DNA from: Granulicella sp. L46 | Lineage (GTDB): Bacteria > Acidobacteriota > Terriglobia > Terriglobales > Acidobacteriaceae | Assembly: GCF_009765785.1 (NCBI RefSeq) | Contig: NZ_LMUT01000025.1 | Coordinates: 613,254-677,253, forward strand | Direction: 5' to 3' | DNA length: 64,000 bases | Part shown: positions 9,273-46,691 of the stretch, one piece after another | Layout: each line of letters starts with the position of its first letter | Numbering within the stretch: the first letter of the stretch is position 1 | Notes under the pieces: model-generated | What the model was told of the DNA's origin: nothing | Databases searched by the model: none | What the model saw: the letters and a program-made list of their open reading frames with translations, nothing else | Position numbers and translations under genes: made by a program

Positions 9273-12200
9273 TTGAAAGCAAAGATACTCACATGCGTCA
9301 CTCGAGCCGCCGTCCTGTTTGCATTTCTAATGTGCTGCTCCATCGGGTTGCAGGCCCAGTTGGCGGTAACCACGGCAACGCTCAGCGGCTCTGTCACCGA
9401 CCCGTCGGGTGCGGTCGTGCCGCAGGCGGTGGTAAAACTTACCAGTACGCTGAACGGCGTCAACCGGACCTATACTACCGACGCGATCGGACGGTTTACC
9501 TTCCCCCAACTTGCGCCTTCGACCTACACCCTATCGATTGCGGCCAAGGGCTTCGAGACCTATCAGCAGACAGGAATCTCACTCGACCCTGGCCAGTCAG
9601 CCACGCAGAACGTTGCCCTGGTGATTGGGTCAATGAGCCAGGAGATACGCGTCAACGCTGAGGCCTCTCAGCTCAACACCGATAACGCTAATGTCTCGGC
9701 GGACCTTGACGCCAAGCAGATCGTAGAACTCCCCCTGAACACACGCAATGTCTACGGCCTTACCACACTTAATTCTTCGGTGAACAATACCTCGGAAGGT
9801 CAAATGCTGCTCGGCGGCGGCAGCAACAGCACGGACAACGCCGATCAGGACATTTCGTTCCTCAACTTCGGCGGCGGCTTTTTTGGCACCTCGGCCTTTA
9901 TGCTCGATGGCTCCTGGGATACCGATCCGGAATGGGGCGCGGTCATCTATGTGCCCTCGGTTGATGCCGTTCAGGAATTCAAAATCCAGAGCAACTCCTT
10001 CACCGCTCAATATGGATGGAGTACCGGCAATGTGGTCAACGTCGTCACCAAGTCTGGAACCAATTCCTTCCACGGCGACGCCTACGAGTTCTACCGCAAC
10101 CAGGCTCTCGACGCCAACCTCTGGTTTGCCGATCATGACGATACGCCGATTGCCAAGCTCAGCCGTAATCAGTTCGGCCTGTCCGCCGGTGGTCCGCTCT
10201 ACATCCCCAAGATCTATAAGCAGCGCGAGAAGACATTCATCTTCGGGCTTTACGAGCACTACCAGGTAACCACTCCAAGCATCGCCACATATACGGTCCC
10301 CGATTCCAACTTTCTCAACGGCAACTTCTCCGAGCTTCTAGGCTCGCAACCGACAGGCCACGATGATCTAGGCCGTCCGATTTATCCCGGACAGATCTAC
10401 GATCCCCGCAGCGCGCACCAGATCACGGTCGGCGTTACGCCCGGCGCAGTAAACAATGACGGACAATGCAATCCATCCTGCTACATCCGCGATCCCATTC
10501 CAGGCAACATCCTCAGCAACCTTGTCAATTACACCCCTGATCCCGTGGGTTCCAAGCTGTTGAGCTATTACCCCAAAGCGACTCTTTCCGGATTGGCCAA
10601 CAACCTGGTTGTATCGGGAGCCGCGCCTGCCGTCTCCAACGAATACCTGATCCGTGTGGATCACAACATCTCCAACACGGCCCGGGCGTACTTCCGCTAC
10701 TCTTACAAGCAAGAAACCAAGACAGGATCGGCAGAGAACTGGGGCAGTGATCCCGCAGGTCCCGGCAACCAGCGCCCCAACAACCGGTGGGGTATGTGGG
10801 CAGGGCTATCGAAAGTATTCAGCCCCACCTTCACCATGAACATTACCGCGGGCGTCCAGCTCTGGCATGAAACTTCGGATAACCAGTCGTTCGGATTCGA
10901 TCCGTCTGGAGAACTCGGACTTCCGCCGTATGTCTCGGAGACCTACCCCCTGTTCCCGATTGTTGACGTTGGTAGCCAGTCCCCGCTTGGTCCGGGCAGC
11001 AACAATCAACAGGCGGTCACCAACCACGGCCCCATCGGCTCGGTGGCGGTGGACTTCGTCAAAATATTTGGGAAACACACGCTCAACTTCGGAATCATGG
11101 GAGTGGAGCAGGTGGATAGTCAGCACAACTACTTCCAGGACACGCTGCAGTTCAACGGAGGCTTCACTGCAGGACCGAATCCTTCCTTTGGATCAGGCGT
11201 TGCCAGCGGTAATGGCGTAGCGGAGGCGCTGCTCGGCACACTGGACTCGGCAAGCGCTGGAACGGCCTACAACCCGCTGGTCTCAAACCACCTCATCGGC
11301 GAGTATGTGCAGGACGACTGGAGACCGACCCCCAAGCTTACGCTCAACCTTGGGATTCGGTATGAGATTCAGACCCCCGTCACCTATCGGGGCAATGAAG
11401 CCTCCATCTTCAACCCCGAAGTTCTAAACCCCATCAGCTACGCGGTCAACACGCCGCACCTCGGCGCGCTCCAGTTTCTCGGACCCGGAAACCGCTATGC
11501 CTACAACCCCAACTATGACAACTGGGCGCCGCGCCTCGGCTTGTCCTATCAGGTGGTGCCCAAGCTCGTCATCCATGGCGGCTATGGCATCTTCTATCCG
11601 CAAGCCGTTACCTGCTGCTTTCCTGGCGATCCGGATGGCTTCTCAGCAACCACGTTTGCTAACACCAGCCTAAACGGCGGAATCAATCCCAATCCGAACA
11701 TCAGCACCAGCGACCCCTGGGATAACACCTACAACCAGATCACTGGCAACTCCCAGGGCGAATACCAACAAGTCGGCAACGGGTTAGGCAGCGTCTGGAG
11801 AAGCCGCCGGTCTCCCTATGTTCAGCAGTGGGTATTCGGCTTGCAGTTCGCCATCACGCCGAATGATTCGGTCGACATCAACTATCTTGGAAACCGTGGT
11901 ACGCGCATGATTACGGGCGGTTATGATCACGACCAGTTGAACCCGCAGTACCTGTCGATGGGTACAGCAGCTCTCCAGGCACAAGTCCCCAATCCGTTCT
12001 ACGGCTCCATTACGTCGAGCAGTTGCAATCTGAACGGTCCGACCGTACAGGAAGCGCAAGTCCTCTCACCTTACCCGCAATACTGCCTGGCCAGCGTAAG
12101 TGAAACCGACGCCCCTGTCGGCTTCTCCGATTACAACGCCCTGCAGATTACATATAATCACCGCATCACCCACGGGCTGACCGCGATGATCTCCTACACC

Positions 12201-12896
12201 TACTCCAAGTTCCTCGATAACGTCGAAGGCAACCAGAGCTGGTCGTACAACGGAAACAGCGGCCCGGCCAACAACTACAACTTGGCTGCTGAAAAGAGCG
12301 TCGACGGCTCTGACATTCCTCATAGCCTCGTCGCAAGTTACATCTATCAATTGCCGGTTGGCCATGGCAGAGCTTACGGTTCGGGCATGAGTCGCACTGC
12401 CGACGCGATACTCGGCGGCTGGGAGATTTCCGGAATCGCGACCTTCAAGACGGGCATCCCGATCAGCATTTCCGGCAATGACATCAACACCTTCGGCGGC
12501 AACCCACGGCCTGACTACACAGGAAGCCTGCATGTCCCCCACCCCACTATTAAAGAGTGGTTCAATACCGCGGCCTTCAGTTTCGCCAAGTTGGCTATCG
12601 ACGGTGGTGACACCTGGGGCAATGTTCCGCGCTTCTTCTCAGACCTGCGCGGACCGCACTACCAGAACTGGGATACCGCGATCTACAAAAACTGGTACCT
12701 CCCCCACACGATGAGAATCCAGTTCCGTTTCGAAACCTTTAATACCTTCAACCATCCGAACTTCTACTCGCCATCGGGTACGGGTTACAGTGGTTGCGAT
12801 CCCAATGCGACCTCGTCCTGCGCGAGTAACTTCGGGCAGATCACAAACACGTTCCCCTCTAGAAATATTCAGCTTGCGGGGAAATTTTATTGGTAA
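9273..12896 (+). CDS. TonB-dependent receptor, Oar-like with carboxypeptidase-regulatory N-domain
   Basis: Start chosen at TTG 9273: GGAGG sits 7 bases upstream and the product then begins with a signal peptide (LKAKILTC to GLQAQ). An in-frame ATG at 9189 has no such support. About 1207 residues. After the signal, residues about 35-115 form a CarboxypepD_reg-like Ig fold (LSGSVTDPSGAVVPQA, GRFTFPQLAPSTY). Then come the plug (VELPLNTRNVYGL, GTNSFHGDAYEFYRN) and a long barrel with acidobacterial receptor motifs (YVQDDWRPTPKLTLNLGIR, LGLSYQ). It ends in an aromatic residue (GKFYW) as outer-membrane barrels do. Predicted active import of a large substrate. Neighbouring GH31 suggests a glucan-like glycan. 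First gene of a tight four-gene unit. Confidence 0.9.
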   Translation: MKAKILTCVTRAAVLFAFLMCCSIGLQAQLAVTTATLSGSVTDPSGAVVPQAVVKLTSTLNGVNRTYTTDAIGRFTFPQLAPSTYTLSIAAKGFETYQQTGISLDPGQSATQNVALVIGSMSQEIRVNAEASQLNTDNANVSADLDAKQIVELPLNTRNVYGLTTLNSSVNNTSEGQMLLGGGSNSTDNADQDISFLNFGGGFFGTSAFMLDGSWDTDPEWGAVIYVPSVDAVQEFKIQSNSFTAQYGWSTGNVVNVVTKSGTNSFHGDAYEFYRNQALDANLWFADHDDTPIAKLSRNQFGLSAGGPLYIPKIYKQREKTFIFGLYEHYQVTTPSIATYTVPDSNFLNGNFSELLGSQPTGHDDLGRPIYPGQIYDPRSAHQITVGVTPGAVNNDGQCNPSCYIRDPIPGNILSNLVNYTPDPVGSKLLSYYPKATLSGLANNLVVSGAAPAVSNEYLIRVDHNISNTARAYFRYSYKQETKTGSAENWGSDPAGPGNQRPNNRWGMWAGLSKVFSPTFTMNITAGVQLWHETSDNQSFGFDPSGELGLPPYVSETYPLFPIVDVGSQSPLGPGSNNQQAVTNHGPIGSVAVDFVKIFGKHTLNFGIMGVEQVDSQHNYFQDTLQFNGGFTAGPNPSFGSGVASGNGVAEALLGTLDSASAGTAYNPLVSNHLIGEYVQDDWRPTPKLTLNLGIRYEIQTPVTYRGNEASIFNPEVLNPISYAVNTPHLGALQFLGPGNRYAYNPNYDNWAPRLGLSYQVVPKLVIHGGYGIFYPQAVTCCFPGDPDGFSATTFANTSLNGGINPNPNISTSDPWDNTYNQITGNSQGEYQQVGNGLGSVWRSRRSPYVQQWVFGLQFAITPNDSVDINYLGNRGTRMITGGYDHDQLNPQYLSMGTAALQAQVPNPFYGSITSSSCNLNGPTVQEAQVLSPYPQYCLASVSETDAPVGFSDYNALQITYNHRITHGLTAMISYTYSKFLDNVEGNQSWSYNGNSGPANNYNLAAEKSVDGSDIPHSLVASYIYQLPVGHGRAYGSGMSRTADAILGGWEISGIATFKTGIPISISGNDINTFGGNPRPDYTGSLHVPHPTIKEWFNTAAFSFAKLAIDGGDTWGNVPRFFSDLRGPHYQNWDTAIYKNWYLPHTMRIQFRFETFNTFNHPNFYSPSGTGYSGCDPNATSSCASNFGQITNTFPSRNIQLAGKFYW

Positions 12897-12903
12897 ATCC
12901 GCA

Positions 12904-14835
12904 TTGAAACGATGGTTCACATTCTTAATCTTTCTCCTGCTGGCCGGACGCTCATTCGGCCAGCAGGACCAACCCTCCAGTCTTGAGTCTCTGCTGGCGG
13001 CAGCGCAGCAAGCGCAAGCTGCGAACAACTATGCCGCTGCGGCGGAATATTTCAAACAGGCAGTCAAACTTCGCCCCAATACCCCGGAGCTGCGCGCCAA
13101 TCTCGGGCTCATGCAACACGAATCCGGGCAGTATTCCGAAGCAATCCGGAGCTTTCAGGAAACCCTCCGGCAGAAGCCATCGCTCTATGTTCCAAATCTT
13201 TTTCTTGGCATCGATTATGTGCGAGCGGGAAACGCGAAAGAAGCCCTTCCATTGCTCCTAAAGGCGGAAAAGATGAACGCAGCCGATCCTCTTCCACCTC
13301 TGACGCTTGGTCGTGCTTATTCTTCGCTGGGCGAATACCCCCAGGCCATCCGAGAGCTGCGCCGCGCAACCCACCTCGATCCACAAAAGGGTTCAGCGTG
13401 GTTCGATCTCGGAATCGCCCAGCTCGATCTGGTGGAAGAGGATGCGCGCGCCATGACCGGCAAATACGCCGACACCTCGTACGCCAAAGCCCTCTATGCC
13501 GAATCGCTGGTGAAGCAGGCTCGCTATAAGGAAGCCGCAGATCTCTACAAAAGCATTCTCGCAGCAGCCGATCAGCCTCCCTGTATGGGATCGGAGGCAA
13601 GCTTTTTGTCCCTCAAGCGAGGAGATGCGCAAAATGCAGCGCTGCAATTCACGGCCGAGCGCAGCCGGCATCCTGAATGTTCCCTCGCCATTCTAGGAGA
13701 AGCGCGTCTGCGCATCGATGCGGGAGACAATCAAGCTGCACTTTCACTACTCCAGGAACTCTGGAACAGGGATCACAGATTTTTCGCTTTCAGCGCTCCG
13801 CTGCTCTTCGATGGCATCGCCCCCGATCATGCTCAGAGCTTTCTGAATGAGCTTGCACAGCAGCAATCCACCGGTAAAGTCGATCATCAAATTTACGCTG
13901 CAATCATTCAATCAATGCAGGCGCCTTCGGATGCAGCGCAAGAGTCAGCCACCGCTCAGAATACAGCGCCATCCCGGATTGCCGCGCACGATCAAGGCCG
14001 CCAGGCGTATCAGTCGGGACAATACGCCCGCTGCGCCGGCCTTCTAAATGATTCGTTGAACAGCGGCAACGCCGCCACCCTCGAGACGCTGGCTGCTTGT
14101 TCGTTTTTCACTGGCGACTACACGCTGACCTCCGACGCCGGAAGCGCGCTTCAATCACTGCCCTCACATCCACAAGCGCAGGCGCTCTACTGGTCCATCA
14201 AGGCGAATGAAAAGCTGGCATTTGAATCGCTCACACGCTTCCAGCAGCTCGAACCCGACTCCGCGCGCAGCCACATCCTGCTCGGCGACATCTACCGCCA
14301 GCGCGAACGCTACGACGATGCGCAGAAAGAATACTCAAAGGCTCTCGACCTTTCTCCCAACGATGCTGCCGCCCTGCTCGGCCTGGCAACTGCATACTTC
14401 GACGACGCGAACACCGCCAGGACCATTGAAATTGCGCGTAAGGCTCTCGCCCAGAGTCCAGACGATCCAGAGATCAATCTCCTGATGGGAGAAGCATTAA
14501 TCTCTCAGCACAATTTCTCTGACTCGGAGCCATATCTACTCAAGGCCCTCAATGCCAAGCCGCAGATGCTGCCACATGTTCACGCTATGTTGGGTGAAGC
14601 CTACGCGGCCGACGGAAAAATGCAAGACGCGCTACGCGAGCTGAAGCTGGGAGTGGATAGCGATCAGGACGGCAGCATTCATTACCAGCTCGCACGCCTG
14701 TACGGTAAGCTCGGCGACACTGCCGACGCGGCCGTCGCCATCCAGCAAATGAAAGTCCTCCAGCAGAAGCGGCGCGAAAGCGCGGTGATCGCGGTGCAGG
14801 ATTCGCACCCCGCCAGCACCGATGACGTGCCGTAA
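12904..14835 (+). CDS. Secreted tetratricopeptide repeat protein, receptor partner
   Basis: The frame is open from 12790 inside the receptor gene, but TTG 12904, 8 bases after the receptor stop, starts a clean signal peptide (LKRWFTFLIFLLLAGRSFGQ). About 643 residues. Most of the mature protein is TPR units: AAAAEYFKQAVKLRPNTPELRANLG, AIRSFQETLRQKP, AIRELRRATHLDPQ, and a C-terminal set including YDDAQKEYSKALDLSPND. It should be a periplasmic helical solenoid binding another protein. The immediate coupling to the receptor, and the same arrangement at 41.7-46.7 kb, indicate a receptor accessory role. That role is an inference. Confidence 0.82.
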   Translation: MKRWFTFLIFLLLAGRSFGQQDQPSSLESLLAAAQQAQAANNYAAAAEYFKQAVKLRPNTPELRANLGLMQHESGQYSEAIRSFQETLRQKPSLYVPNLFLGIDYVRAGNAKEALPLLLKAEKMNAADPLPPLTLGRAYSSLGEYPQAIRELRRATHLDPQKGSAWFDLGIAQLDLVEEDARAMTGKYADTSYAKALYAESLVKQARYKEAADLYKSILAAADQPPCMGSEASFLSLKRGDAQNAALQFTAERSRHPECSLAILGEARLRIDAGDNQAALSLLQELWNRDHRFFAFSAPLLFDGIAPDHAQSFLNELAQQQSTGKVDHQIYAAIIQSMQAPSDAAQESATAQNTAPSRIAAHDQGRQAYQSGQYARCAGLLNDSLNSGNAATLETLAACSFFTGDYTLTSDAGSALQSLPSHPQAQALYWSIKANEKLAFESLTRFQQLEPDSARSHILLGDIYRQRERYDDAQKEYSKALDLSPNDAAALLGLATAYFDDANTARTIEIARKALAQSPDDPEINLLMGEALISQHNFSDSEPYLLKALNAKPQMLPHVHAMLGEAYAADGKMQDALRELKLGVDSDQDGSIHYQLARLYGKLGDTADAAVAIQQMKVLQQKRRESAVIAVQDSHPASTDDVP

Positions 14836-14927
14836 CTGCTCCGATCCGCGCGAATTTCCAAGCCCCCAAAATGACTGCCCAAACCAAATGGGTTTCACCT
14901 CCCAAATGATTTTATTCGAGGATACGA

Positions 14928-17465
14928 ATGCGAAAGTTTTGCTCTTTAAGCGCGACTCTCTCGTTATGTCTCGCGCCTTCGGCCCTCGTTCTCCATGCCC
15001 AGCAGACTCCTGGAAGGCAAGATTTGGTTGTCCTCGACCGCGCCACCGGTTTCACCGCGCTGGCTAACGGAGTCGCCATCGCAGACGGCTCCGCGAGCGA
15101 AGAGATTATTGCGCTGCGCGACAACGTCATCCGAGTTCGCATCGTGCCCAATGGCACCCTGCCGGAAAATGCGTCGTGGGCTGTTCTGCCGGATGCTCTC
15201 CGCAGCCACGTCAATGTGAAGCCCGAATCCTCCACAACGTCGTTCGGCTTCCGCACCGCCGCGCTCGATATTGAGATCGACAAAAGCACGCTGCAACTTA
15301 CGGTGCGCGATCTCTCCGGAAAAATCGTGCAACAGGACGCGCTGCCCGCCCGCTTTGAAGGAACCAGCTTCCGCGTCTTCAAATCGATGCCGCTCGACGA
15401 GCACTACTTCGGCCTCGGCGACAAAACCGGTCCGCTCGACCGGCGCGAAGAAGCCTTCTCGCTCTGGAACACCGACGCATACCGTTTTGAGGAATCGACC
15501 GACCCCATCTACAAAAGCATTCCCTTCTTTATGATCTATCAAGCCGGTATCGCATCCGGCATCTTCCTCGACAACACCTGGCGCACGAGCTTCGATTTTG
15601 GCAAAGAGATCCCCGGGATCTACTCCTTCGGCGCCGTAAACGGCCCGCTGAATTACTACATCCTCTATGGGCCGTCTCCAAAGCAAGTGGTTGAGACGTA
15701 TGCGTGGCTCACAGGAAGGCCGCCCCTGCCGCCCATGTGGTCGTTCGGCTACCAGCAATCGCGTTATACCTACACTCCGCAGGCGCGGGTGCTTGAGGTG
15801 GCACAGCGCCTCCGCGACGATCACATCCCCGCCGACGCCATCTATCTCGACATCGGATTTCAGGAAAAGAATCGTCCTTTCACGGTGGACACAAAAGCCT
15901 TTCCCGATTTTTCCGGCATGATCGCGAAGCTGAAGGCACAGAACTTCCACGTGGTCGCCATTACCGACCTTCACATTGCAAAGCTTTCCGACCAGAACTA
16001 TTTCCCATATGACAGCGGGATGGCCGGCGATCATTTTGTGAAGAACCCCGATGGCTCCGTCTACACCGGAGTCGTCTGGCCTGGCCCCAGCGTCTTTCCC
16101 GACTTCACGCAGCAGCAGACGCGCGCCTGGTGGGGCACGCTCTACGGGAACTTTCACAAGCTCGGCATCGAAGGTTTCTGGAACGACATGAATGAGCCTT
16201 CCATCTTCAAGACGCCCACGCACACCATGCCCCTCGATGTTGTCCATCGCATCGACGAGTCGGGATTCACCCAGCGAACCGCAACGCACGCTGAAATTCA
16301 CAACGTATACGGCATGGAAAATTCACGCGCCACCTTCGAGGGGCTGAGAACGCTCGATCCCAATCTGCGCCCCTTTGTGCTCACTCGCGCAACCTACCCA
16401 GGTGGCCAGCGCTATGCCGCTACATGGACCGGAGACAACAGCAGCAGTTGGAACCATCTCCGCATGACAACCTTCATGCTCAAAAATCTCGGCCTCAGCG
16501 GGTTCGCCTTCAGCGGGGCGGATGTAGGCGGATTCGCCGGAACGCCATCCGCCGATCTGCTAACCAAGTGGCTTGAAATCGCTGCCTTCCAGCCCATCGA
16601 CCGCGATCATACCGAGGCCGGAACCGGCGATCAGGAGCCATGGGTCGGCGGCCCCGCGCAGGAAGCTATCCGCCGCCGCTTTATCGAAGAACGCTACCGC
16701 CTCATGCCCTTCCTCTACACCCTCGCGGAAGAAGCTTCACGCACTGGCCTTCCCATGATTCGCCCACTGTTCTTCGAATATCCCAACGCCGCTCCCGACC
16801 GTCATCCAATCGACATCGACAATCCAGCCTCCGGCGAATTTCTGCTAGGACACGATCTGTTGATTGCCCCGTCGCCCTACCCCGACCAAACCGACAGCTA
16901 TACCATCGAGTTTCCTTCGGCTGATTGGTACGACTACTGGACCGGAGAGAAAGTCAGAAATCCGGGCCCGCCCGATCCCGGCCCCAGCCCGGCGTTGCCC
17001 GCATCCGCTCAGGTTCAACTTTCCATCCCGGTCGTACCGACTCTCGCAAACCTTCCCGTCTTCGTTCGCGCAGGCTCTATCCTCCCCATCGCGCCACTGG
17101 TTGAAAGCACGAATCAAATCCCACAAGGCCCGTTGTCACTTCGCGTTTACGCTGGAGACGACTGCAACGGTAGCGTCTATCAGGACGATGGACGCACCTA
17201 CGCTTATAAAGATGGCGCTTACCTGCGCATAAACTTCACCTGTCAAATCGCATCGGACGGCTTTCACCTGCGCGCAGGCCCACAGGAAGGAACGTATCCA
17301 CCCTGGTGGAAAGAAATTCGCATCGAAATCTATGGATGGACGCCCTCCGCGAACACGGCATCGCTCAATGGCAAACCTATTCAATCAACCGCTTCGCCGA
17401 TTGACCACGGATTTGCCATTACCATCCCCGCACGTTCAGAGAGCTTTGACTTGCAACTCAGGTAA
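14928..17465 (+). CDS. GH31 family alpha-glycosidase, exported
   Basis: 845 residues from ATG 14928 (SD GAGGA at 14918-14922). Signal peptide to LHAQ. It has an N-terminal galactose-mutarotase-like beta domain (about 30-220), then the (beta/alpha)8 barrel with the GH31 signatures: PPMWSFGYQQSRY, the nucleophile Asp in GFWNDMNEPS at about 420, and the acid/base Asp in TWTGDNSSSW at about 503, then SGADVGGF. A C-terminal beta domain carries DLLIAPSPYP and DDGRTYAYKDG. The family hydrolyses terminal alpha-glucosides or alpha-xylosides, with retaining mechanism. Alpha-glucosidase is most likely but xylosidase is not excluded. It lies 92 bases after the TPR gene in the same unit, so it probably trims oligosaccharides in the periplasm. 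Confidence 0.9.
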   Translation: MRKFCSLSATLSLCLAPSALVLHAQQTPGRQDLVVLDRATGFTALANGVAIADGSASEEIIALRDNVIRVRIVPNGTLPENASWAVLPDALRSHVNVKPESSTTSFGFRTAALDIEIDKSTLQLTVRDLSGKIVQQDALPARFEGTSFRVFKSMPLDEHYFGLGDKTGPLDRREEAFSLWNTDAYRFEESTDPIYKSIPFFMIYQAGIASGIFLDNTWRTSFDFGKEIPGIYSFGAVNGPLNYYILYGPSPKQVVETYAWLTGRPPLPPMWSFGYQQSRYTYTPQARVLEVAQRLRDDHIPADAIYLDIGFQEKNRPFTVDTKAFPDFSGMIAKLKAQNFHVVAITDLHIAKLSDQNYFPYDSGMAGDHFVKNPDGSVYTGVVWPGPSVFPDFTQQQTRAWWGTLYGNFHKLGIEGFWNDMNEPSIFKTPTHTMPLDVVHRIDESGFTQRTATHAEIHNVYGMENSRATFEGLRTLDPNLRPFVLTRATYPGGQRYAATWTGDNSSSWNHLRMTTFMLKNLGLSGFAFSGADVGGFAGTPSADLLTKWLEIAAFQPIDRDHTEAGTGDQEPWVGGPAQEAIRRRFIEERYRLMPFLYTLAEEASRTGLPMIRPLFFEYPNAAPDRHPIDIDNPASGEFLLGHDLLIAPSPYPDQTDSYTIEFPSADWYDYWTGEKVRNPGPPDPGPSPALPASAQVQLSIPVVPTLANLPVFVRAGSILPIAPLVESTNQIPQGPLSLRVYAGDDCNGSVYQDDGRTYAYKDGAYLRINFTCQIASDGFHLRAGPQEGTYPPWWKEIRIEIYGWTPSANTASLNGKPIQSTASPIDHGFAITIPARSESFDLQLR

Positions 17466-17514
17466 AGCGTTCTGCCGAAGCCGTGCCAATCCTCACGTAC
17501 CTCAAGGGCGAGAC

Positions 17515-18735
17515 ATGAGGCAACCCGAATTTCGTAGCCAGCAAGATGAAACTCTTCGCATGCGGCGCACCCTCAAAGCTCGAGTCCCTCTCTTCACGCT
17601 AGCCCTCGCCGCCTCAGCTCTATGCATCGCCCAGACAGCCGCTCCCATCCCTGGACTCAGCCTCACCACGCTCGACCGCATGCAGGGTCCCGGCTGGTGG
17701 CCCACCAAAGGCATCTCTCCCGCAAATGCCTACGTCGGAGAAGCCGCTTGCGCCAAGTGCCACATCAACATTGTCGCCACGCAACATAGCACGCCCATGT
17801 ACCACGCCGCAGCGCGCGCCGAGAACACTCCGCTCCTCGCGGAACACCCCGACATGACCTTCCACGAGGGCCCCTACACCTATGCCATCCGCCACAACAA
17901 CTCCTCCGTCAGCAACGGAGTCGCAACCGCCGCACAACCCATCGCATGGGCTTTCGGCAACGGAGAATACGGCCAGACCTACATCCTCGAATCCAGCGGC
18001 CAGTACACCGAGTCGCGTCTCAGTTACTACGCCTCGCTTCACGCGCTCGATATCACCACCGGGCACTCCACCGAACTCCCCAGCACACTCGAAAAAGCCT
18101 TAGGTGATCCCCTCAAGCCTGACACCGCCCAGCATTGCTTTAGTTGTCACACAACCGAAGCCGTCGTCTCCGATAGCTTCCAGCCAGAAAAAGCTATTCC
18201 CGGAGTTACCTGCGAAGCCTGCCACGGTCCCGGCGCAAAACATGTCGCCACCATGACCGCCGGCCAAGACGACATGTCCGCCGCGACCATCACCAATCCC
18301 GCATCCATGTCGCCTACCGACTCTGTCGACTTCTGCGGAGCCTGCCACCGCACCTGGTCCGACGTCACAATGCTCATGCCCGCGAACATCGGAATCGTTG
18401 TCGTCCGCTTCCAACCGTATCGCCTAGAAATGAGCCGCTGCTGGGGCACCGCCGGAGACCCGCGCATCACCTGCATCGCCTGTCACAACCCGCACCAGCC
18501 GCTCGTTCAATCAACAGCCGCCTACGACATAAAGTGCCTGGCCTGCCATCGCGCCCTCAATGGCCGACGCGCGAACGAGCCAACCCAGCCCCACGTCACT
18601 GCACCGGCCTGCAAAGTCGGCGCGCACGATTGCGCTTCCTGCCACATGCCGCGCTATGAAATCCCCCAGACCCACGCCTCTTTCACCGACCACGACATCC
18701 GCATCGTCCGCGCCCGCGACACCTTACCGCAGTAG
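17515..18735 (+). CDS. Seven-heme cytochrome c, periplasmic
   Basis: Start at ATG 17515 (406 residues). ATG 17560 would put the signal peptide (LKARVPLFTLALAASALCIAQ) at the very N-terminus and is also possible. Seven CXXCH heme-attachment motifs are visible, at about residues 79 (CAKCH), 208 (CFSCH), 233 (CEACH), 274 (CGACH), 320 (CIACH), 341 (CLACH) and 373 (CASCH). Spacing resembles cytochrome c554/NrfA-like multiheme proteins. No catalytic motif was recognised, so it is probably an electron carrier. It follows the GH31 gene by 49 bases on the same strand, an unexpected partner for glycan uptake. Confidence 0.85.
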   Translation: MRQPEFRSQQDETLRMRRTLKARVPLFTLALAASALCIAQTAAPIPGLSLTTLDRMQGPGWWPTKGISPANAYVGEAACAKCHINIVATQHSTPMYHAAARAENTPLLAEHPDMTFHEGPYTYAIRHNNSSVSNGVATAAQPIAWAFGNGEYGQTYILESSGQYTESRLSYYASLHALDITTGHSTELPSTLEKALGDPLKPDTAQHCFSCHTTEAVVSDSFQPEKAIPGVTCEACHGPGAKHVATMTAGQDDMSAATITNPASMSPTDSVDFCGACHRTWSDVTMLMPANIGIVVVRFQPYRLEMSRCWGTAGDPRITCIACHNPHQPLVQSTAAYDIKCLACHRALNGRRANEPTQPHVTAPACKVGAHDCASCHMPRYEIPQTHASFTDHDIRIVRARDTLPQ

Positions 18736-30385: not shown

Positions 30386-30414
30386 CCGGGAAGCTTCAGC
30401 ACGAGCAGCCAGGC

Positions 30415-31608: not shown

Positions 31609-31683
31609 TCTTGCCTCATGATGGTTGCAGGATAAATTCTTGGCGTACGATGAAGGACAACTCGGAATTGCGTAGGGAAAATA

Positions 31684-31695
31684 TACTCTCTATTG
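31684..31695. promoter_or_regulatory. Candidate operator in the rhaT/lutA divergent promoter region
   Basis: TACTCTCTATTG, which also occurs exactly (reverse orientation) at 34638-34649 in the rhaI promoter. It lies 38 bases before the lutA start and 76 bases from the rhaT start. Flanks are AT-rich in both places. Confidence 0.5.
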
Positions 31696-31733
31696 AATTA
31701 TCCTGTCGAACGATCCATACTGCGGAGGCCGTG

Positions 31734-34577: not shown

Positions 34578-34634
34578 CATTGCAAACAAATGCCCCTATA
34601 TTGACTCCCAAAAATGCGTGATTTTTTGTCGCTA

Positions 34635-34663: not shown

Positions 34664-34694
34664 AAAAACCTTAGTTGCTATGAGGACTCTATCG

Positions 34695-35888: not shown

Positions 35889-36034
35889 CGCGTTCGGAGC
35901 AGGACCCCTCACCTCCGCGAGAAAACTATGCTCTAACTGAATGGAAACTCGCCAGCCTCGCCATTCCATTAAGGAAACACAGCTTCTTTATAGGATAATG
36001 GGATCGTTGAGTGCCTGTTCCTCCGCGGGAGACT

Positions 36035-39593: not shown

Positions 39594-41068
39594 GCGAACC
39601 TCCCCGGATCCCATTGCCTTCGCACGACAAGCGAGCGTCGATTGCCGTGGACCTGGGCGCAGAGAGTTGTCGCGTCTCATTGCTTCGCTGGCTCGGTGGC
39701 CAGCCTGCCATCACGTTGGTCCATCGATTTGCGAATGCCCCCCGCGAGATCGACGGTGCCTTGCGCTGGGATCTCGCGATGATCGAGGCGGGGCTCGATG
39801 AAGGCCTTCGGAAGTGCGCCGCCATCGCCACCGAAGGGGTCCGATCGATCGCTGTCGATGGATGGGCCGTGGACTATGTTCGCGTCGATCCCAACAATCA
39901 TCCCCTCGCCGACCCCATCTGCTACCGCGACGAACGCACCATCCGCTCCAAGCAAGCCCTGCACCAGAAGATCAGCCCCTCAAAACTCCGCGAGTTGACC
40001 GGCATTCAGGTGTTACGTATCAACACGCTCTACCAGCTCTATGCCGACGTCTTATCCGGGCTTCCCGACACCCCCTGGCTCAATCTCCCCGAATACATCC
40101 TCTCGCGTTGGGGAGCCGCCCCTGTCGCCGAATACACCAACGCCACCCACACCCACCTCATCGATCTCGTAACGCGCCAATGGTCCGAGGAGATCTTTCA
40201 GTCCGCCCACTTGAACGTCGCGTCTGCTCCCAATCTCGTTCCTCCCGGTACGCAAATCGGCAAACTCCGCGGCCCCCTCGCCGAACTCCCAGCTTTCCGC
40301 AACACGCTGCTCATCGCCCCCGCCTGCCACGACACCGCATCCGCAATCGCAGGCATTCCAGCGTCGGGCGACGATTGGGCGTACATCAGTTCGGGCACGT
40401 GGTCGCTTGTCGGAACCTTGCTCGATCAGCCACAAAATGGAGTCGAAGCTGCAGCCGAGAACTTCACAAATCTCGGGGCTGTCGGAGGCCAGATCTGCTT
40501 TCACAAGAACGTGAACGGCATGTGGCTACTCCGGCAGTGCATGGACGCGTGGGCATCGATAGGCCACGCCTGGACGATCCCCGACCTCGTTGCCGCGGCA
40601 GAAAAAATCCCTTCACCGCGAGATCTTCTCGATGTCGACGATCCCGATCTTCTACTGGCCGGAAACATGCCGCAACGCATCAACGCGCAGCGAGTGCGCC
40701 AAGGCCTTACTGCTTTGGACGACAGCCCCGAAAACGCTCCCGTCTTTGCGAGTCTGATCTTTCACAGTCTCGCAGCGCAATACGCAAAGGTCCTCGATCG
40801 CGTCGCGCTGCACAGCGGCAAAAGGCTGAAGCGTCTCTTCGTAGTTGGTGGCGCAAGCAAGAACGACTTTCTCAATCGTCTTACCCAGGAAGCTACAGGC
40901 CTCGAACTCCATCGCGGATCACCCGAGAGCTCGACCATAGGAAACTTCGCCGTCCAGTTGGCCGCCTTAGAGTCTGCAGGGAACAGAGTTACCGGCCCGT
41001 CTGCAAAAGACATATCGCACTGGTCCAGCCTGTTTGTCGCTGCGCTCACGCAACGTTCCATTCCCTAA
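39590..41068 (+). CDS. rhaB: L-rhamnulokinase
   Basis: 492 residues from ATG 39590, which overlaps the rhaEW stop (ATGA). The frame is open upstream but the ATGA start gives the family N-terminus with SIAVDLGAESCRVSLL, the FGGY kinase phosphate-binding loop. Further signatures are GWAVDYVRVD, ACHDTASAIAGIP, SGTWSLVGTLL and a late FVVGGASKNDFLNRLTQEATG for ATP binding. It phosphorylates L-rhamnulose to rhamnulose-1-phosphate in the cytoplasm, the substrate for the aldolase encoded just before it. Translational coupling with rhaEW follows from the overlap. Confidence 0.93.
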   Translation: MSEPPRIPLPSHDKRASIAVDLGAESCRVSLLRWLGGQPAITLVHRFANAPREIDGALRWDLAMIEAGLDEGLRKCAAIATEGVRSIAVDGWAVDYVRVDPNNHPLADPICYRDERTIRSKQALHQKISPSKLRELTGIQVLRINTLYQLYADVLSGLPDTPWLNLPEYILSRWGAAPVAEYTNATHTHLIDLVTRQWSEEIFQSAHLNVASAPNLVPPGTQIGKLRGPLAELPAFRNTLLIAPACHDTASAIAGIPASGDDWAYISSGTWSLVGTLLDQPQNGVEAAAENFTNLGAVGGQICFHKNVNGMWLLRQCMDAWASIGHAWTIPDLVAAAEKIPSPRDLLDVDDPDLLLAGNMPQRINAQRVRQGLTALDDSPENAPVFASLIFHSLAAQYAKVLDRVALHSGKRLKRLFVVGGASKNDFLNRLTQEATGLELHRGSPESSTIGNFAVQLAALESAGNRVTGPSAKDISHWSSLFVAALTQRSIP

Positions 41069-41761
41069 CCGACCCTTGACCTAAATCCCGTCCGACACGC
41101 CGCGCATTAATTATTTACTTTTCACTACCCGCATCCAGCTCTGGCGCGCTCGCCGGGTCCTGCACCGATGCCCCGGGAATTCCCGCCGCGGTACTCCAGG
41201 GGTGCCACTAAAGTCGCGCTTCCGGGAACCTGCTGGATCCTGCCCTTGGGCCGATGGCCAAGTCTTGTTATCAGACTTGGGTTCTTCAGCGCGAAACGCT
41301 CATGCAGAGAATGACCCCGCCGATTGGACTCGTGGAAGTCGATGTTTCATGAGCGCGGAGGTCGAAGCTGCTCGCACCGTGATAGCGAAGATTGCGCCAG
41401 GAATAGGGTTCTTGCCGAACGCGAGGAGGCCGCGCAGAAACAATTTCTGGCCGCTGAGGATCATCCACTCGACACCCCGGGCCAAGTAACGGAATAGATT
41501 GCGCTTAGTTGCATCGGGAGTGAATAAGGTGCCTCCTCCGAAGTTACTTGACAATCGTCAGATTCGAGGTATAGGTTTTCCCCTGTCTTCAAAGCAGAAC
41601 AAGTTTTTCCCTTGAAACTAAGGATTTCAAAAGGACCTCAACACAACACTGGCAGAAGGCGCTCGAACGCCGGCGGTGCCCAACTGAACCATGATCCAGA
41701 AGTTCGGAATCACGGTCGTTGAAGGAAGTTGTAATTGCAGCACGACATTACTGGAGGCAAT
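41069..41761. other. 693-base region between rhaB and the second receptor
   Basis: No recognisable gene. Frames on both strands (for example minus 41300-41554 and plus 41202-41489) look like noise or fully decayed coding sequence. The right half holds the promoter at 41549-41576. Confidence 0.4.
41549..41576 (+). promoter_or_regulatory. Sigma-70-like promoter upstream of the second receptor
   Basis: TTGACA at 41549-41554 and TATAGG at 41571-41576 with a 16-base spacer. This is about 185 bases before the receptor start, so the mRNA leader would be long. Confidence 0.55.
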
Positions 41762-44700
41762 ATGGTGAGAAGTTTGAGGCTGCAATTGATGTTGGTCTTT
41801 CTGCTGACAGTCCCTCAATTGGTTTGGGCGCAGGCAGGAACGACCGGTACGATCCTCGGAAGGGTCAGCGACAGCACAGGAGCCATCATTCCTGGAGCAC
41901 CAGTTGAGGTGACCAACCTTGCTACAGGCGTCACCATCAAGGTGACCACCAGCGGAACGGGCGATTACACTGCGTCCAACCTGACGCCCGGAAGCTATCA
42001 GGTATCCGTCCAGACGAAGGGGTTTTCTAAGACCGTCGTGAGCGGCATTACACTCGTCGTTGCACAGGAAGAACGAATCGACTTCCAGCTAAAGCTCGGA
42101 GCCGCGAGTGAAACAGTTCAGGTAAGCGCCAGTGCTGTTGCATTGGATACCGATTCGTCCGCAGTCTCCCAAATTGTCACGCAGCGGCAGATCTCCCAGC
42201 TTCCACTCAATGGCCGAAATTTCACCGACCTTCTCTTCATTGGCGCGGGTGCCGTCCAGACGGTCGGCGAACAAGGCCAGATGCGGCAAAATGAAGCCAA
42301 CGCTATCAGCATCAATGGTGCGCGGCCGGAATCCAACAACTACACTCTGGACGGCCTGACCAATACCGATACTGCTCTCAATACCCCCGCTGTGATCCTC
42401 TCGCAGGATGCCATCCAAGAGTTCAAGGTGCAGAGTGCGACCTATTCTGCGCAATACGGCTTCAGCGCCAACCAGGTAAACATCATCAGTAAGAGCGGAA
42501 CCAATCAGCTCCACGGGTCCATCTTCGAGTTCGTCCGTAACAATGCTTTTGACGCGATACCACACCAGACCATCACCAATAACAGCACTGAAAATCCGGA
42601 GTTGCGGCAAAATCAGTTCGGATTTGTCTTGAGCGGTCCCGTCGTGATTCCCAAGCTCTACGACGGAAGAAATCGGACTTTCTGGTTGGCCAACTACGAA
42701 GGCTGGAGGATTATTCAAGGCGGACACCTATCGGGCTATGCCCCGACGACGGCCGAACTGGGCGGCGATTTTTCGGCCGAAACTGCCACGCTTCCCGCCT
42801 ACGGAACATCAGCCTGCACAACACAATTGCTTGCCGGCAACAACTGCTTGCCCATTGATCCGCTCACCGGTCTGCCATTTCCCGGCAACATGATTCCCAG
42901 CGATCGATTTTCCAGGTTGGCGAATGTGACCTCCAAAACGCTGTCCACCGGCACGACCGATCCAAATGGAACGGGCCCGTACAACTGGTTTGCTACCGCA
43001 AATGCCAGCACCGTGACCGATCAGCAAACCTACCGCGGTGATCAGGACTTCAAGCGTTTCGGACAGATCTTCTTTCGGTACACCAAGGCAGATTACGACA
43101 ATCAAAATTACGCCACCGACTCACTCAACCTGAATGCCGGTGCAAATATTTTCACCGAGAATTCGACCAGTTGGACGGGCGGCTACACACTCGCACTTCC
43201 AAAAGGATTTATCAATGACTTCCGCTTCGGCAAACTCGAGGCTATTTCTATCCAGGGAGATAGCGCCGCCAGCCAAGCGGATATCACCGCCCTCGGCTTG
43301 ACGGGAGTCTTTACAAACCTGCCCTCATACGCCGCCGGATACCCGAATCTCACGTTTGGCTCAACCAGCTATATTAACGGCGGCAGTCCCGGCAATAACC
43401 CGACCACCAGCGACATTCCCGTATGGGAGTTCGCAGACTCGGTGTCGAAGCAGCATGGCGCTCACGCCTTCAGCTTCGGCGTGGACTACCGCTCCTGGGT
43501 GCAAAAGCGCAATCTCGCCACGAACTTCTTAGGCTCATACACCTATACCAGCAATCTCGTTACCCTTAACGGAACAGGCGGCACCAATGGCTGTCCCGTC
43601 GGAAATGTGACCTGTGGAACGGGCAACTTCTACGCGGATTACCTGCTCGGTTACTACAACGGCGCCGCAACCTTTCAGCCAGGTCCGTTCTCCGCAACCG
43701 GCGCAGCGCCCGGGCACTTGAATCAATATGTCTTCAAATATTTCGCTCCCTATTTCGAGGATGACTGGAAGGTAACTGCCAAACTCACCCTGAATCTGGG
43801 CCTTCGTTGGGACTTCCGTAGCATCCCTTATGCGAATGACCAGGCAGCCCCGAATGTCGGCAGCAACCAACTCTTCTGGCTTGATCCTCAAAATGTCAAA
43901 GGAGGACTTTGCTTTGCGGACCCGGAATTGTTGACTGACGGCATCGCTCCCGCAGGGAACGACTTCTACCGCTACTGCGGCAAGACACCCAGGGCGGCAT
44001 CGAAGCTCCCATTTGCTCCACGCTTTGGCTTCGCCTACAGCATCGACCCAAAGACGGTCGTGCGTGGGGGCTACGGTATCTTCTTCGACTCGTCTGAGAC
44101 TCGCGAGATGGACAACTCCGGCGATCAATATCCATTCCTCATTCGCACAAGCCTCACTTCTTACGCAGACAATCCGCTGAAATCGACCAACCAGCTGTTT
44201 ACCCCGCTGACCGCCGTCGCACCGGTGTCGGCCGCGGCAAATGGTAGCGCATTCACGGCGGTCATCCTTTCTGAATATCCGCAGAACCCTTATATGCAGC
44301 AGTGGACCCTTTCGGTTCAGCGCCAACTTGCCAGGAACACCACACTGGAGATCAATTACATCGGCAATAAAGGAACGCACTTGCTCGAACGATTCAACGT
44401 TGACCAGCCGGGCGCGCTGCCTTCCCAGGATGTATTACCTTGCAATGCCAATCCCGCCGATACAACTCATGATTGCCCTTACACGATGCGTCTCCCGTTG
44501 CCGAACTTCACCAGCAGCAATGGATTTCTCGATAGCAAATGGATCGGTTACTCCAACTACAACTCAGGCAACGTAAAACTCGAACATCGGTCCGAGGACG
44601 GCGTCGCACTGCTCGTCTATACCTGGGCGAAAAGTATGGATAGTAAATCTGCCGCTGCCGGCATCGGAGCCACCAACAGCTTTGCGGGTCCCATGGATTC

Positions 44701-45319
44701 AGCGAATCCACACCTCGACTACGCCCGGTCTGACTTCAACGTTGGCCAGCGTTTCGTCGCCAGCTATGCTTACCGTCTACCGTTCGGTCGCGGCAAGAAG
44801 TTTGGTGGAAACGTGAATCGTGCCACAGACGCCGCGATCGGCGGATGGGAGCTTACCGGTATTGGCACCTTTCAACAAGGCTTCCCCTTCTCGGTTCTTG
44901 CTACCGATCTGTATGGCCTCTTAGGCGCTCCTAACCAGCGTGCCAACGTCGATGGCAACCCTAAGGCTGGATTCCACAAGAGCACCGCGGAATGGTTCAA
45001 TACCTCGGTCTTCTCGCAACCCCTTGCAGGCACCTTCGGTAATAGCGGACGCAATATTTTGGATGAGCCCGGCATCAGTAACTGGGATATGGGCTTAGTG
45101 AAATACTTCAGCCTCACCTCGCGCATCAAGTTGCAGCTGCGGGTGGAAACCTTCAACACCTTCAACCACACCCAATGGGGAGTCGATCCGACCACCCAAG
45201 GCAGCAGTGGGCCGGGTACAACTGCCGAAGTCACCAACGTCAATGCCGGCAACTTTGGGCACCTGACAACGGCTCGACCACCACGCGTCATACAATTCGG
45301 CGGCAAGATAACCTTCTGA
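41762..45319 (+). CDS. TonB-dependent receptor, Oar-like with carboxypeptidase-regulatory N-domain
   Basis: ATG 41762 has GGAGG four bases upstream (41753-41757) and gives a signal peptide (MVRSLRLQLMLVFLLTVPQLVWAQ). About 1185 residues. The order is: Ig-like CarboxypepD_reg domain (TILGRVSDSTGAIIPGA, DYTASNLTPGSY), plug (QLPLNGRNFTDLL, ISINGARPESNNYTLDGLTN), then a barrel (FEDDWKVTAKLTLNLGLRWD), ending aromatic (GGKITF). It is only distantly similar to the receptor at 9273 outside family motifs, so the two probably import different ligands. The TPR gene follows in the same direction after a hairpin. With the rhamnose block directly upstream, import of rhamnose-containing oligomers is the simplest guess. 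Confidence 0.9.
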   Translation: MVRSLRLQLMLVFLLTVPQLVWAQAGTTGTILGRVSDSTGAIIPGAPVEVTNLATGVTIKVTTSGTGDYTASNLTPGSYQVSVQTKGFSKTVVSGITLVVAQEERIDFQLKLGAASETVQVSASAVALDTDSSAVSQIVTQRQISQLPLNGRNFTDLLFIGAGAVQTVGEQGQMRQNEANAISINGARPESNNYTLDGLTNTDTALNTPAVILSQDAIQEFKVQSATYSAQYGFSANQVNIISKSGTNQLHGSIFEFVRNNAFDAIPHQTITNNSTENPELRQNQFGFVLSGPVVIPKLYDGRNRTFWLANYEGWRIIQGGHLSGYAPTTAELGGDFSAETATLPAYGTSACTTQLLAGNNCLPIDPLTGLPFPGNMIPSDRFSRLANVTSKTLSTGTTDPNGTGPYNWFATANASTVTDQQTYRGDQDFKRFGQIFFRYTKADYDNQNYATDSLNLNAGANIFTENSTSWTGGYTLALPKGFINDFRFGKLEAISIQGDSAASQADITALGLTGVFTNLPSYAAGYPNLTFGSTSYINGGSPGNNPTTSDIPVWEFADSVSKQHGAHAFSFGVDYRSWVQKRNLATNFLGSYTYTSNLVTLNGTGGTNGCPVGNVTCGTGNFYADYLLGYYNGAATFQPGPFSATGAAPGHLNQYVFKYFAPYFEDDWKVTAKLTLNLGLRWDFRSIPYANDQAAPNVGSNQLFWLDPQNVKGGLCFADPELLTDGIAPAGNDFYRYCGKTPRAASKLPFAPRFGFAYSIDPKTVVRGGYGIFFDSSETREMDNSGDQYPFLIRTSLTSYADNPLKSTNQLFTPLTAVAPVSAAANGSAFTAVILSEYPQNPYMQQWTLSVQRQLARNTTLEINYIGNKGTHLLERFNVDQPGALPSQDVLPCNANPADTTHDCPYTMRLPLPNFTSSNGFLDSKWIGYSNYNSGNVKLEHRSEDGVALLVYTWAKSMDSKSAAAGIGATNSFAGPMDSANPHLDYARSDFNVGQRFVASYAYRLPFGRGKKFGGNVNRATDAAIGGWELTGIGTFQQGFPFSVLATDLYGLLGAPNQRANVDGNPKAGFHKSTAEWFNTSVFSQPLAGTFGNSGRNILDEPGISNWDMGLVKYFSLTSRIKLQLRVETFNTFNHTQWGVDPTTQGSSGPGTTAEVTNVNAGNFGHLTTARPPRVIQFGGKITF

Positions 45320-45352
45320 CGCCCTTTCGCAAAATGTTCAATCCGCTCAAGC

Positions 45353-45383
45353 CCAGGTGCCGTAGTCTGACTACGGCGCCTGG
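45353..45383 (+). repeat. Intercistronic hairpin between receptor and TPR gene
   Basis: Perfect 13-bp stem (one G-T pair) CCAGGTGCCGTAG / CTACGGCGCCTGG with a five-base loop. No T tract follows, so an intrinsic terminator is unlikely. Attenuation or mRNA 3' stabilisation of the receptor message is possible. Confidence 0.6.
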
Positions 45384-45482
45384 AGCAGTTCTCGAAGCAC
45401 CCGCAGATTTATAGAAAAACCCGCTCCAGCGAGGCCAACCGTTGCGGAAGTGATCCCGAGAGATTAACAGGATGGGCCCGCC

Positions 45483-46691
45483 TTGCAAAGCAAATGGCTA
45501 CGTAGAATTTTCTTTCTCATACTGGTGGGCGCTGGCGGTCAACATATCGCGGCCGCACAGGGCGCGGACTTCGAGCGTCTTTACAACGCCGGCCAGGCTG
45601 CAATGGCAGCAGGCCAGTATCAGGACGCACTAACTGACTTCAAGCAACTGCTGGCCATCGACCCCGGCGTTGCCGAAGTACATGCCACGCTCGGAGTTCT
45701 CTACTACAAGTCCGGAGACTTCGGTCGCGCGATCGAAGAGATACATGCCGCTCGCAAGCTAAAGCCGGGCCTGCCTGGATTGGACACCTTATTAGCTTTG
45801 TCGCTCGCTGAAAGCGGCCGGTACAAAGAGTCACTTCCAGGATTAGAAAAAGCGTTTCATGCGTCGCCTGATCCGGCCCTCAAGCGCCAGGCAGGCTTGG
45901 AACTCGCTCACGTGTATGCAACGTTGGGGATGGATCGGAAAGCAGTCGAGACGGCTCTCGAAATGCGCGATTTGTACAAAAACGATCCCGAGGTTCTCTA
46001 CAACGTAGGCAAGATCCTCGGAAACTCCGCCTATCTGACCATGCAGGATCTCTTCCACGGTGCACGAGATTCCTTGTGGGCTGAGCTCGCAAGAGCCGAA
46101 GCGTATGAGAGCCAAGGCCAAGTCCCCGATGCAATTCAGGCTTACGCGAATGTTCTTGCACTGGATCCTCATCATCCGAATATCCATTACCGTATGGGTC
46201 GCACGTACCTCTCTCATTGGAAAATGGTTCATGAGGAGAGCGACTTCAAGAGTGCAGAAACAGAATTCTCCAAGGAGCTCGAAGTCGACCCCGGCAACGC
46301 TAACGCCGCCTATGAACTTGCCGATCTGCGTCGCACTGAGGGCGATTTAGCGGCAGCACAACAGCTCTATGAATCGGCAGTCGAATATTATCCAAACTTC
46401 GAAGAGGCTGAAGTCGGACTGGGCAGGGTATTGCTGCAGGCGAATAAGCCTGCACTCGCTCTTCCTCACCTGCAGCGGGCAACTGTCCTGCGTCCGGACG
46501 ATGAAGTGGCATGGTTCAAGCTGGCGCAAGCCCAGCGAATGCTCGGTGACAAGCAAGCGCAGTTGCTGTCCCTCGCCAAGTTCAAAGTACTGCATGCAAA
46601 GACCAGTGCAGCCCTGAACACCGCCCTTACCCCACAAGGCACAGACTCGGTTACTCCACAGCAGCTGAATGTAGAAGATCAAAAGCAATGA
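45483..46691 (+). CDS. Secreted tetratricopeptide repeat protein, second receptor partner
   Basis: 402 residues from TTG 45483, signal peptide (LQSKWLRRIFFLILVGAGGQHIAAAQ). TPR units are clear: GQYQDALTDFKQLLAIDPGVAEVHATLG, IEEIHAARKLKPG, ALDPHHPNIHYRMGRTYL, EFSKELEVDPGNANAAYELA, YPNFEEAEVGLGRVL, ATVLRPDDEVAWFKLA. Predicted periplasmic solenoid. Same order and signal type as the TPR gene at 12904, which also follows a receptor. The shared arrangement suggests a standard accessory protein for these receptors, though the binding partner is unknown. The last quarter is Ala/Gln-rich and poorly structured. Confidence 0.82.
   Translation: MQSKWLRRIFFLILVGAGGQHIAAAQGADFERLYNAGQAAMAAGQYQDALTDFKQLLAIDPGVAEVHATLGVLYYKSGDFGRAIEEIHAARKLKPGLPGLDTLLALSLAESGRYKESLPGLEKAFHASPDPALKRQAGLELAHVYATLGMDRKAVETALEMRDLYKNDPEVLYNVGKILGNSAYLTMQDLFHGARDSLWAELARAEAYESQGQVPDAIQAYANVLALDPHHPNIHYRMGRTYLSHWKMVHEESDFKSAETEFSKELEVDPGNANAAYELADLRRTEGDLAAAQQLYESAVEYYPNFEEAEVGLGRVLLQANKPALALPHLQRATVLRPDDEVAWFKLAQAQRMLGDKQAQLLSLAKFKVLHAKTSAALNTALTPQGTDSVTPQQLNVEDQKQ

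Follow-up and report, generated by a model that had tools for sequence, protein, structure and literature searches.

Gene organization of the receptor-TPR pairs

The window analyzed here, a stretch of 64,000 nucleotides from the 5.48-Mb genome of Granulicella sp. L46 (contig C19:613254-677253), contains two gene pairs, each made up of an Oar-type TonB-dependent receptor and, next to it in the same orientation, a predicted exported tetratricopeptide repeat (TPR) protein encoded downstream. In pair 1, the gene of receptor 1 (9273-12896, forward strand; the open reading frame opens at 9189) precedes that of TPR protein 1 (TPR 1; 12904-14835, forward strand, 643 aa), which can start at the TTG at 12904, 7 bases past the receptor stop at 12896. 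In pair 2, receptor 2 (41735-45319, forward strand), the true start of which may be the ATG at 41762, is followed after 163 bases by the TTG start at 45483 of TPR protein 2 (TPR 2; 45483-46691, forward strand, 402 aa). Judged from domain content, both receptors are members of the Oar subclass, as Pfam assigns them a PF25183 barrel (E = 4e-190 for receptor 1 and 2e-195 for receptor 2) together with a PF13620 CarboxypepD_reg extension at the N-terminus, and it is this extension that the initial annotation had described as an Ig-like domain. The plug domain PF07715 reaches 23.1 bits in receptor 2 against a cut-off of 23.9 and is not reported for receptor 1. Both TPR proteins have multi-TPR Pfam matches and carry Sec-like signals without a lipobox, these assignments being based on patterns and not on SignalP. 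The repeated layout of an Oar-like receptor and a Sec-exported TPR protein with a TTG start, as initially annotated, is therefore confirmed for both pairs. TPR 1 and TPR 2 share 27% identity over 303 columns (E = 1e-12) in a single pairwise comparison.

The gap between receptor 2 and TPR 2 contains a strong hairpin (45351-45386, forward strand; fold z of -3.7 for 45320-45482), the core of which (45359-45377) occurs only once in the window. It might make the expression of both genes unequal.

Conservation and frequency of the pairing

Among 121 genomes of the class, orthologues of receptor 2 (51-56% identity, E <= 1e-200) are present in seven including the own genome, at eight loci with two in G091, and orthologues of TPR 2 (42-50% identity) in nine, which include all seven genomes with receptor 2 (Fisher p = 6e-10 for co-occurrence, with kinship ignored). 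In one of the two additional genomes (G053) the receptor occupies two frames (L091), and a 5.8-kb contig carries another copy of TPR 2 together with a 28% identical piece of a receptor (L094). In the other (G068) the contig with TPR 2 is 5.6 kb long, and no receptor is in view on it (L092). Receptor 2 falls into a clade of nine members with a support of 100, and in all nine cases the TPR gene adjoins the receptor or is one gene away. The intervening gene encodes a GH106 protein in L088 and L090 and a FAD/lactone-oxidase-like protein in L089. A homologue of GH106 is in view at five of the eight clade loci outside the own genome (L085, L086, L088, L089, L090), isomerase-like and GH39-like homologues occur in L086 and L089 and also in L092 outside the clade, and homologues of the regulator of the rhamnose block (35-36% identity) in L087, L089 and L090, while L091 and L093 have no homologue of any of these four types within view. 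The receptor-TPR pair is present in three families of the class. This comparison of predicted genes establishes pair 2 as an orthologous unit, which is inherited together and linked to GH106 rhamnosidases.

For pair 1 the association is looser. Orthologues of receptor 1 with at least 43% identity were found at nine loci outside the own genome, one of which (L247) is cut off by the contig end, and in five of the eight scorable cases TPR 1 is located directly downstream (L241, L242, L244, L245, L248; the genomes of L244 and L245 are nearly the same). Furthermore, the order receptor, TPR protein and GH31 glycosidase recurs in G033 (L214), where the GH31 protein is 71% identical to the one in the window. 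By gene neighbourhood, pair 1 is a predicted GH31 locus separate from pair 2. G033 carries pairs 1 and 2 on separate large contigs, pair 2 being more than 650 kb away from both ends of its contig, and therefore the closeness of both pairs in the window does not reflect a conserved arrangement.

The frequency of the pairing was determined in the own genome and in a sample of others. In the own genome, 68 PF25183 rows gave 57 receptor genes after merging ten split rows and dropping one 47-aa fragment, and 36 TPR genes were counted from TPR_19 rows, for which 150 of 272 candidates were scored; fetched loci were checked on the DNA and the remaining receptors were judged against the TPR_19 rows. 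A TPR gene lies directly downstream of five of the 57 receptors (both pairs in the window, L040, L042 and L043), whereas 0.43 such neighbours are expected (Poisson p = 9e-5), and directly upstream of one more (L041). For the other genomes, 14 were searched, 11 had matches and 60 regions were taken from seven (G083 17, G060 14, G128 13, G005 6, G018 5, G127 4, G143 1), three of which belong to the family of the window. The regions represent about every second of the first approximately 120 matches listed, with two overlapping rows swapped for neighbours, and as this list is ordered by score, strong receptors are over-represented. A TPR gene follows directly on the same strand in six of 64 receptors (L125, L127, L137, L145, L149, L156) versus four of the 425 genes of other kinds (p = 6e-4, Fisher test); counted on either side and strand, the numbers are 7/64 and 14/425 (p = 0.012). 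Since the profiles for TPR, ASPIC and receptor genes were derived from matches in the own genome, divergent TPR genes are missed and the adjacency counts are lower bounds; open reading frames below 150 aa were skipped for adjacency. The enrichment of receptor-TPR adjacency is real and about ten-fold, yet it is confined to about a tenth of the receptors, and the TPR protein as a universal partner of these receptors was rejected on these counts. Rarity of the adjacency, which the initial annotation had named as a point against its reading, thus holds for receptors at large (six of 64 downstream in seven genomes) but not for the pair 2 clade with its nine of nine.

In a FastTree phylogeny of 121 receptors, which was accompanied by several long-branch warnings, the TPR-linked receptors cluster. 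The part of the tree not picked for TPR genes (83 receptors, eight of them linked) requires five changes compared with 7.7 +/- 0.5 after shuffling, with none of 300 shuffles as low, and the whole tree including loci chosen for their TPR genes requires 11 changes versus 19.3 +/- 1.3. A single clade uniting all TPR-linked receptors was rejected, as they are spread over several lineages of this tree, and receptor 1 joins the pair 2 clade weakly (support 86, long branch). Receptor genes in several genomes are broken over two frames (L043:4613-8455, L091:5348-8670, L085:9871-13460), among them one receptor of the own genome (C5:331485, with one in-frame stop); either pseudogenisation or an assembly error would account for the split genes.

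Neighbouring genes and a membrane protein family

Pair 2 is located at the end of a rhamnose block, which starts with a predicted exported GH106 alpha-L-rhamnosidase (20592-23996, Pfam E = 0) with a Sec-like signal, a GH39-like exported protein (24223-25737), a sugar-isomerase-like protein (26127-27563) and a second exported GH106-like protein (27629-30385, Pfam), all on the forward strand. They are followed by a RhaT-like L-rhamnose transporter on the reverse strand (30415-31608, Pfam) and, again on the forward strand, by a Lut-type operon of three genes (CCG, LUD plus Fe-S, LUD; 31611-34577, Pfam), an L-rhamnose isomerase (34680-35888; TIGR02635 with 501 bits, slightly below the cut-off of 531), a regulator that combines an IclR helix-turn-helix domain with a periplasmic-binding-protein fold (36011-37123, Pfam), a rhamnulose-1-phosphate aldolase/dehydrogenase (37386-39593; NF006189, 986 bits) and an FGGY sugar kinase (39491-41068, Pfam). 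The reading frame of the kinase opens inside the upstream gene and its true start is probably later than 39491.

Pair 1 is flanked downstream by a predicted exported GH31 glycosidase with a Sec-like signal (14928-17465, forward strand, Pfam) and a multihaem cytochrome-like protein (17332-18735, forward strand, Pfam), a homologue of which lies upstream of receptor 1 in G060/G099. The initial annotation had both pairs flanking the rhamnose block; this is retained for pair 2, which belongs to the block, whereas pair 1 goes with GH31. Upstream, a gene for a protein with FG-GAP repeats, an ASPIC_UnbV domain and a Sec-like signal (6890-8836, reverse strand, Pfam) diverges from receptor 1, which had been missed before.

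Beyond this gene, a predicted single-pass membrane protein (5519-6793, forward strand) consists of an N-terminal domain of about 90 aa, a hydrophobic stretch at about residue 172 and a C-terminal part of about 230 aa, and it has no Pfam match. Homologues directly adjoin the receptor-1 orthologues L241, L242 and L246. The N-terminal domain occurs in eight copies in the own genome (besides the window at C8:50630, C19:96211, C5:1169986, C5:1391782, C2:460477, C5:1021054 and C19:214348), six of which are located directly beside a PF25183 receptor by coordinates (binomial p = 5e-9). Three of these six were checked on the DNA; two are directly divergent (L012, L038) and one is divergent with a gap of 1.1 kb (L018). 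The copy in the window is parted from receptor 1 by the ASPIC_UnbV gene, and the copy at C19:214348 (L051:7699-9777) is the N-terminal part of a TPR protein of 692 aa that adjoins no receptor. In the receptor sample, members of the family adjoin five of 64 receptors versus six of 447 other genes (p = 0.007). By eye, we take the N-terminal domain to resemble the winged helices of OmpR/ToxR; its model (pLDDT 50) is of insufficient quality to decide this, and a phmmer search of the PDB returned no useful match. The context of these genes suggests that the family is possibly a regulator dedicated to receptors, and it provides a handle on possible receptor regulation.

Putative role of the TPR protein and comparison with known systems

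In the TPR 2 model, calculated from a two-sequence alignment (pLDDT 81.5, pTM 0.60), helical hairpins extend over residues 24 to approximately 382. Among the matches listed, the closest folds are superhelices, for example the TPR domain of OGT (Z 24.7, root-mean-square deviation 10.8, 330 aligned residues), with AlgK and PilF/PilW further down; the matches listed are generic helical-repeat chains and no SusD chain is among them. The modelled protein resembles a simple TPR superhelix that would leave no space to accommodate a loop-rich SusD ligand subdomain. Neither TPR protein has a Pfam match to SusD families, for TPR 2 up to an E value of 0.01, and PF07980 (SusD_RagB), the SusD family searched genome-wide, is found in none of 21 genomes (the own and 20 of the genus and order) and among 14 control genomes only in Bacteroides, in agreement with the initial annotation, which had seen no SusD homologue. 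A lipobox is absent in 20 of the 21 TPR proteins that are encoded directly downstream of a receptor in the mapped loci, including both in the window, and a possible one is present in the 492-aa protein of L090. As the GH106, GH31 and TPR proteins all have Sec-like signals, they probably share a periplasmic location. A contig scan with TPR 2 as query returned one uninformative cyanobacterial locus.

The concave positions of a TPR and its consensus numbering are established in the TPR literature, and we took positions 2, 5, 9, 12 and 13 as concave. The 11 TPR-2 orthologues share 58 invariant positions, among them E65, E110, E170, Y173, W199, E209, S210, R240 and Y277. The concave positions (0.97 bits) are more conserved than other non-consensus positions (1.43 bits, p = 1e-4), and the structural consensus positions (0.93 bits) are conserved like the concave ones.

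We assume, with a probability of roughly 40%, that the pairs form the outer-membrane uptake end of carbohydrate loci, in which an Oar-type receptor works together with a soluble periplasmic TPR scaffold. The scaffold is favoured by the gene order, the co-inheritance of pair 2, the link to GH106, the Sec-like signals without lipobox and the inner-helix conservation of TPR 2. For pair 2 the receptor would import a rhamnoside into the periplasm and for pair 1 a GH31 substrate, and the concave groove of the TPR protein might bind the periplasmic N-terminal region of the receptor, a partner enzyme or an FG-GAP/ASPIC_UnbV propeller. In this way the TPR protein could keep an exported glycosidase at the inner mouth of the receptor, where the substrate would be handed over. 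It would then be an accessory to some receptors and not an obligatory lid as SusD is. A more general SusD-independent complex of the Acidobacteriota, in which the scaffold docks either GH106/GH31 enzymes or the propeller, cargo imported or exported is passed on at the receptor's inner mouth and some receptors are controlled by the single-pass membrane protein family, which lacks a Pfam model, is conceivable but doubtful in its entirety.

Several observations weigh against the scaffold. About 90% of the receptors in the seven-genome sample have no adjacent TPR gene, and two of 11 TPR-2 orthologue loci have no clade receptor in view (L092 and L094, on contigs below 6 kb). TPR 1 is absent after three of the eight scorable receptor-1 orthologues: in L246 a GH31 gene and in L243 a weakly GH31-like gene directly follows the receptor, and L255 has neither a TPR gene nor GH31. 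Likewise, a TPR gene is directly downstream of none of six receptor-1 relatives at 34-37% identity, one of which (L253) has an ASPIC gene instead. A TPR-ASPIC pair without a nearby receptor exists in L053, and in L045 and L046 the receptor is further off. Moreover, the concave positions do not differ significantly from other helix-A positions (p = 0.23), so that the groove signal is at best an inner-helix signal.

The main competing explanation is that the TPR protein acts as a chaperone or in export, which we regard as possible, if unlikely, and which draws on the ASPIC_UnbV genes. In the own genome a TPR gene lies within two genes of 11 of the 14 ASPIC_UnbV genes; one ASPIC gene has no TPR gene nearby (L049), and in L052 two ASPIC genes are located just 3' of a 1414-aa open reading frame that matches TPR and ASPIC profiles and was not counted as TPR. 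L040 to L043, L045 and L053 provide examples of this association with or without a receptor. In 40 regions of other genomes, hand-picked down the list of matches (eight from G142), TPR neighbours were found for 17 of 54 ASPIC genes versus 28 of the 281 remaining genes (p = 1e-4). Receptor neighbours were found for 5/54 versus 7/281 (p = 0.03). In 20 loci of TPR 2 relatives, the best rows first out of 36 from other genomes, a receptor is within three genes of 24 of 32 TPR genes and an ASPIC gene within three genes of 15 of 32; within the own genome, TPR 2 is most closely related to TPR proteins linked to a receptor or to an ASPIC gene (L040, L041, L045 and TPR 1). The order receptor-TPR-ASPIC in L040 and receptor-TPR-FG-GAP in the near-identical loci L219/L220 would also fit a role in export, as would the existence of receptor-free TPR-ASPIC pairs. 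In addition, the accessible text on Oar describes a protein that shares the PF13620 extension and is needed for the secretion of PopC (PMC6434023). However, five of the eight pair 2 loci outside the own genome have GH106 and only L089 has an ASPIC gene by the TPR gene, which fits better with import. In the receptor sample, none of the 64 receptors touches an ASPIC gene, yet seven have one within three genes, which argues that the ASPIC link runs mostly via the TPR gene. Judged by pattern, the signals of the ASPIC proteins are Sec-like or Tat-like, and nothing points to these proteins leaving the periplasm. On the receptor tree, nearness to ASPIC genes is weakly clustered (18 changes versus 21.4 +/- 1.2, with eight of 300 shuffles as low).

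Some of the TPR-linked ASPIC_UnbV proteins have a Tat-like RRxFL signal followed by a QGMASRGV-type motif (L096:9868, L099:5009, L100:6909 and L102:8091, with slightly different versions in L089 and L103), and 13 of 86 ASPIC proteins match a loose Tat pattern.

Rather unlikely is that the genes are operon neighbours without direct interaction, common TPR genes travelling with degradation genes for another periplasmic job. The part of the pair 1 lineage without a TPR gene and the many TPR genes near ASPIC genes would be compatible with this, but the fact that the genes of pair 2 occur together and close to each other across three families, and the ten-fold enrichment overall, speak against it. 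An adaptor that joins the receptor to TonB/ExbBD seems improbable. The likely periplasmic location would suit it and additional proteins of TonB systems are known, one of which, TtpC, carries TPRs. In the accessible text, TtpC is an extra protein of the Vibrio TonB2 and TonB3 systems (PMC6957404). However, the TPR gene accompanies only about a tenth of the receptors, and a part needed for energy coupling would be expected more widely.

The SusD role proposed in the initial annotation is not retained, and it is very improbable that the TPR protein serves the receptor as a glycan-binding lid or surface partner in the manner of SusD: SusD itself has four TPRs holding its loop-rich ligand subdomain according to the accessible text (PMC2954216), the lack of PF07980 could leave the SusD post vacant, and the inner helices of TPR 2 contain conserved aromatic and polar residues, but profiles, missing lipobox and model hairpins without an extra subdomain speak against it, a TPR gene touches only 7/64 receptors on either side, and carbohydrate TonB receptors of Xanthomonas are described without a detected SusD (PMC1790865, accessible text). 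Since the adjacency concerns a minority of receptors, the TPR protein does not replace SusD in general, and a surface glycan-binding role was rejected on signals and fold. What remains of the initial reading is that the receptor-TPR link is real and conserved and that, for pair 2, it is connected with the degradation of rhamnosides.

Acidobacteriota abound in soil, and some of them encode dozens of Oar-type receptors, the own genome 57. In the literature searched we found no explanation for their uptake of plant glycans in the absence of SusD, and the conserved receptor-TPR-rhamnosidase unit is a concrete, testable system for such uptake. The TPR-ASPIC_UnbV link also gives a genomic context to a domain seldom named in that literature. 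No description of receptor-TPR pairing in Acidobacteria was found among the titles and abstracts searched, a scope outside which preprints and most subscription journals fall. A term search in the accessible text of two acidobacterial papers gave no TPR or tetratricopeptide (PMC7074687, PMC5900883) and, in the second, no SusD or TonB (PMC5900883). The Solibacter tables, as accessible, list ASPIC/UnbV and TonB receptor paralogues (PMC3174227).

The SusC/SusD loci of Bacteroidota resemble the pairs in that a receptor is followed by an exported, TPR-containing helical protein with glycosidases nearby. SusD has a surface lipoprotein signal and is the regular partner of every receptor of its class, whereas the proteins described here lack a SusD profile match, a lipobox and a modelled ligand subdomain and accompany a minority of receptors. 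AlgK, PilF/PilW, BamD and the N-domain of Slam have the TPR superhelix in common with TPR 2, AlgK and PilF/PilW also appearing in the VIA-align rows. In contrast to these factors, TPR 2 has neither a barrel nor a lipobox, and its NCBIfam scores stay well under the cut-offs for PilW (61 versus 154) and BamD (41 versus 81). Slam unites an N-terminal TPR part and a C-terminal barrel in one protein; an identity with Slam was rejected, as TPR_Slam figures among numerous TPR matches, none of the families matched is a barrel family and the model of TPR 2 is helical. Oar of Myxococcus xanthus shares the PF13620 N-terminal extension and differs in that it is required for protease export; neither TPR nor tetratricopeptide occurs in the main text of that paper (PMC6434023).

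A close counterpart is provided by the CUT loci (carbohydrate utilisation containing TBDR) of Xanthomonas and Caulobacter, in which, according to the accessible text, a TonB-dependent receptor is combined with degradative enzymes, an inner-membrane transporter and a sugar regulator in the absence of SusD; a TPR partner is not mentioned in that text (PMC1790865). The rhamnose block together with receptor 2 has the same layout, with GH106, RhaT and the IclR/PBP-type regulator, but differs from CUT loci in its Oar-type receptor (PF25183 plus PF13620) and in the TPR gene, which is a regular member in the pair 2 lineage.

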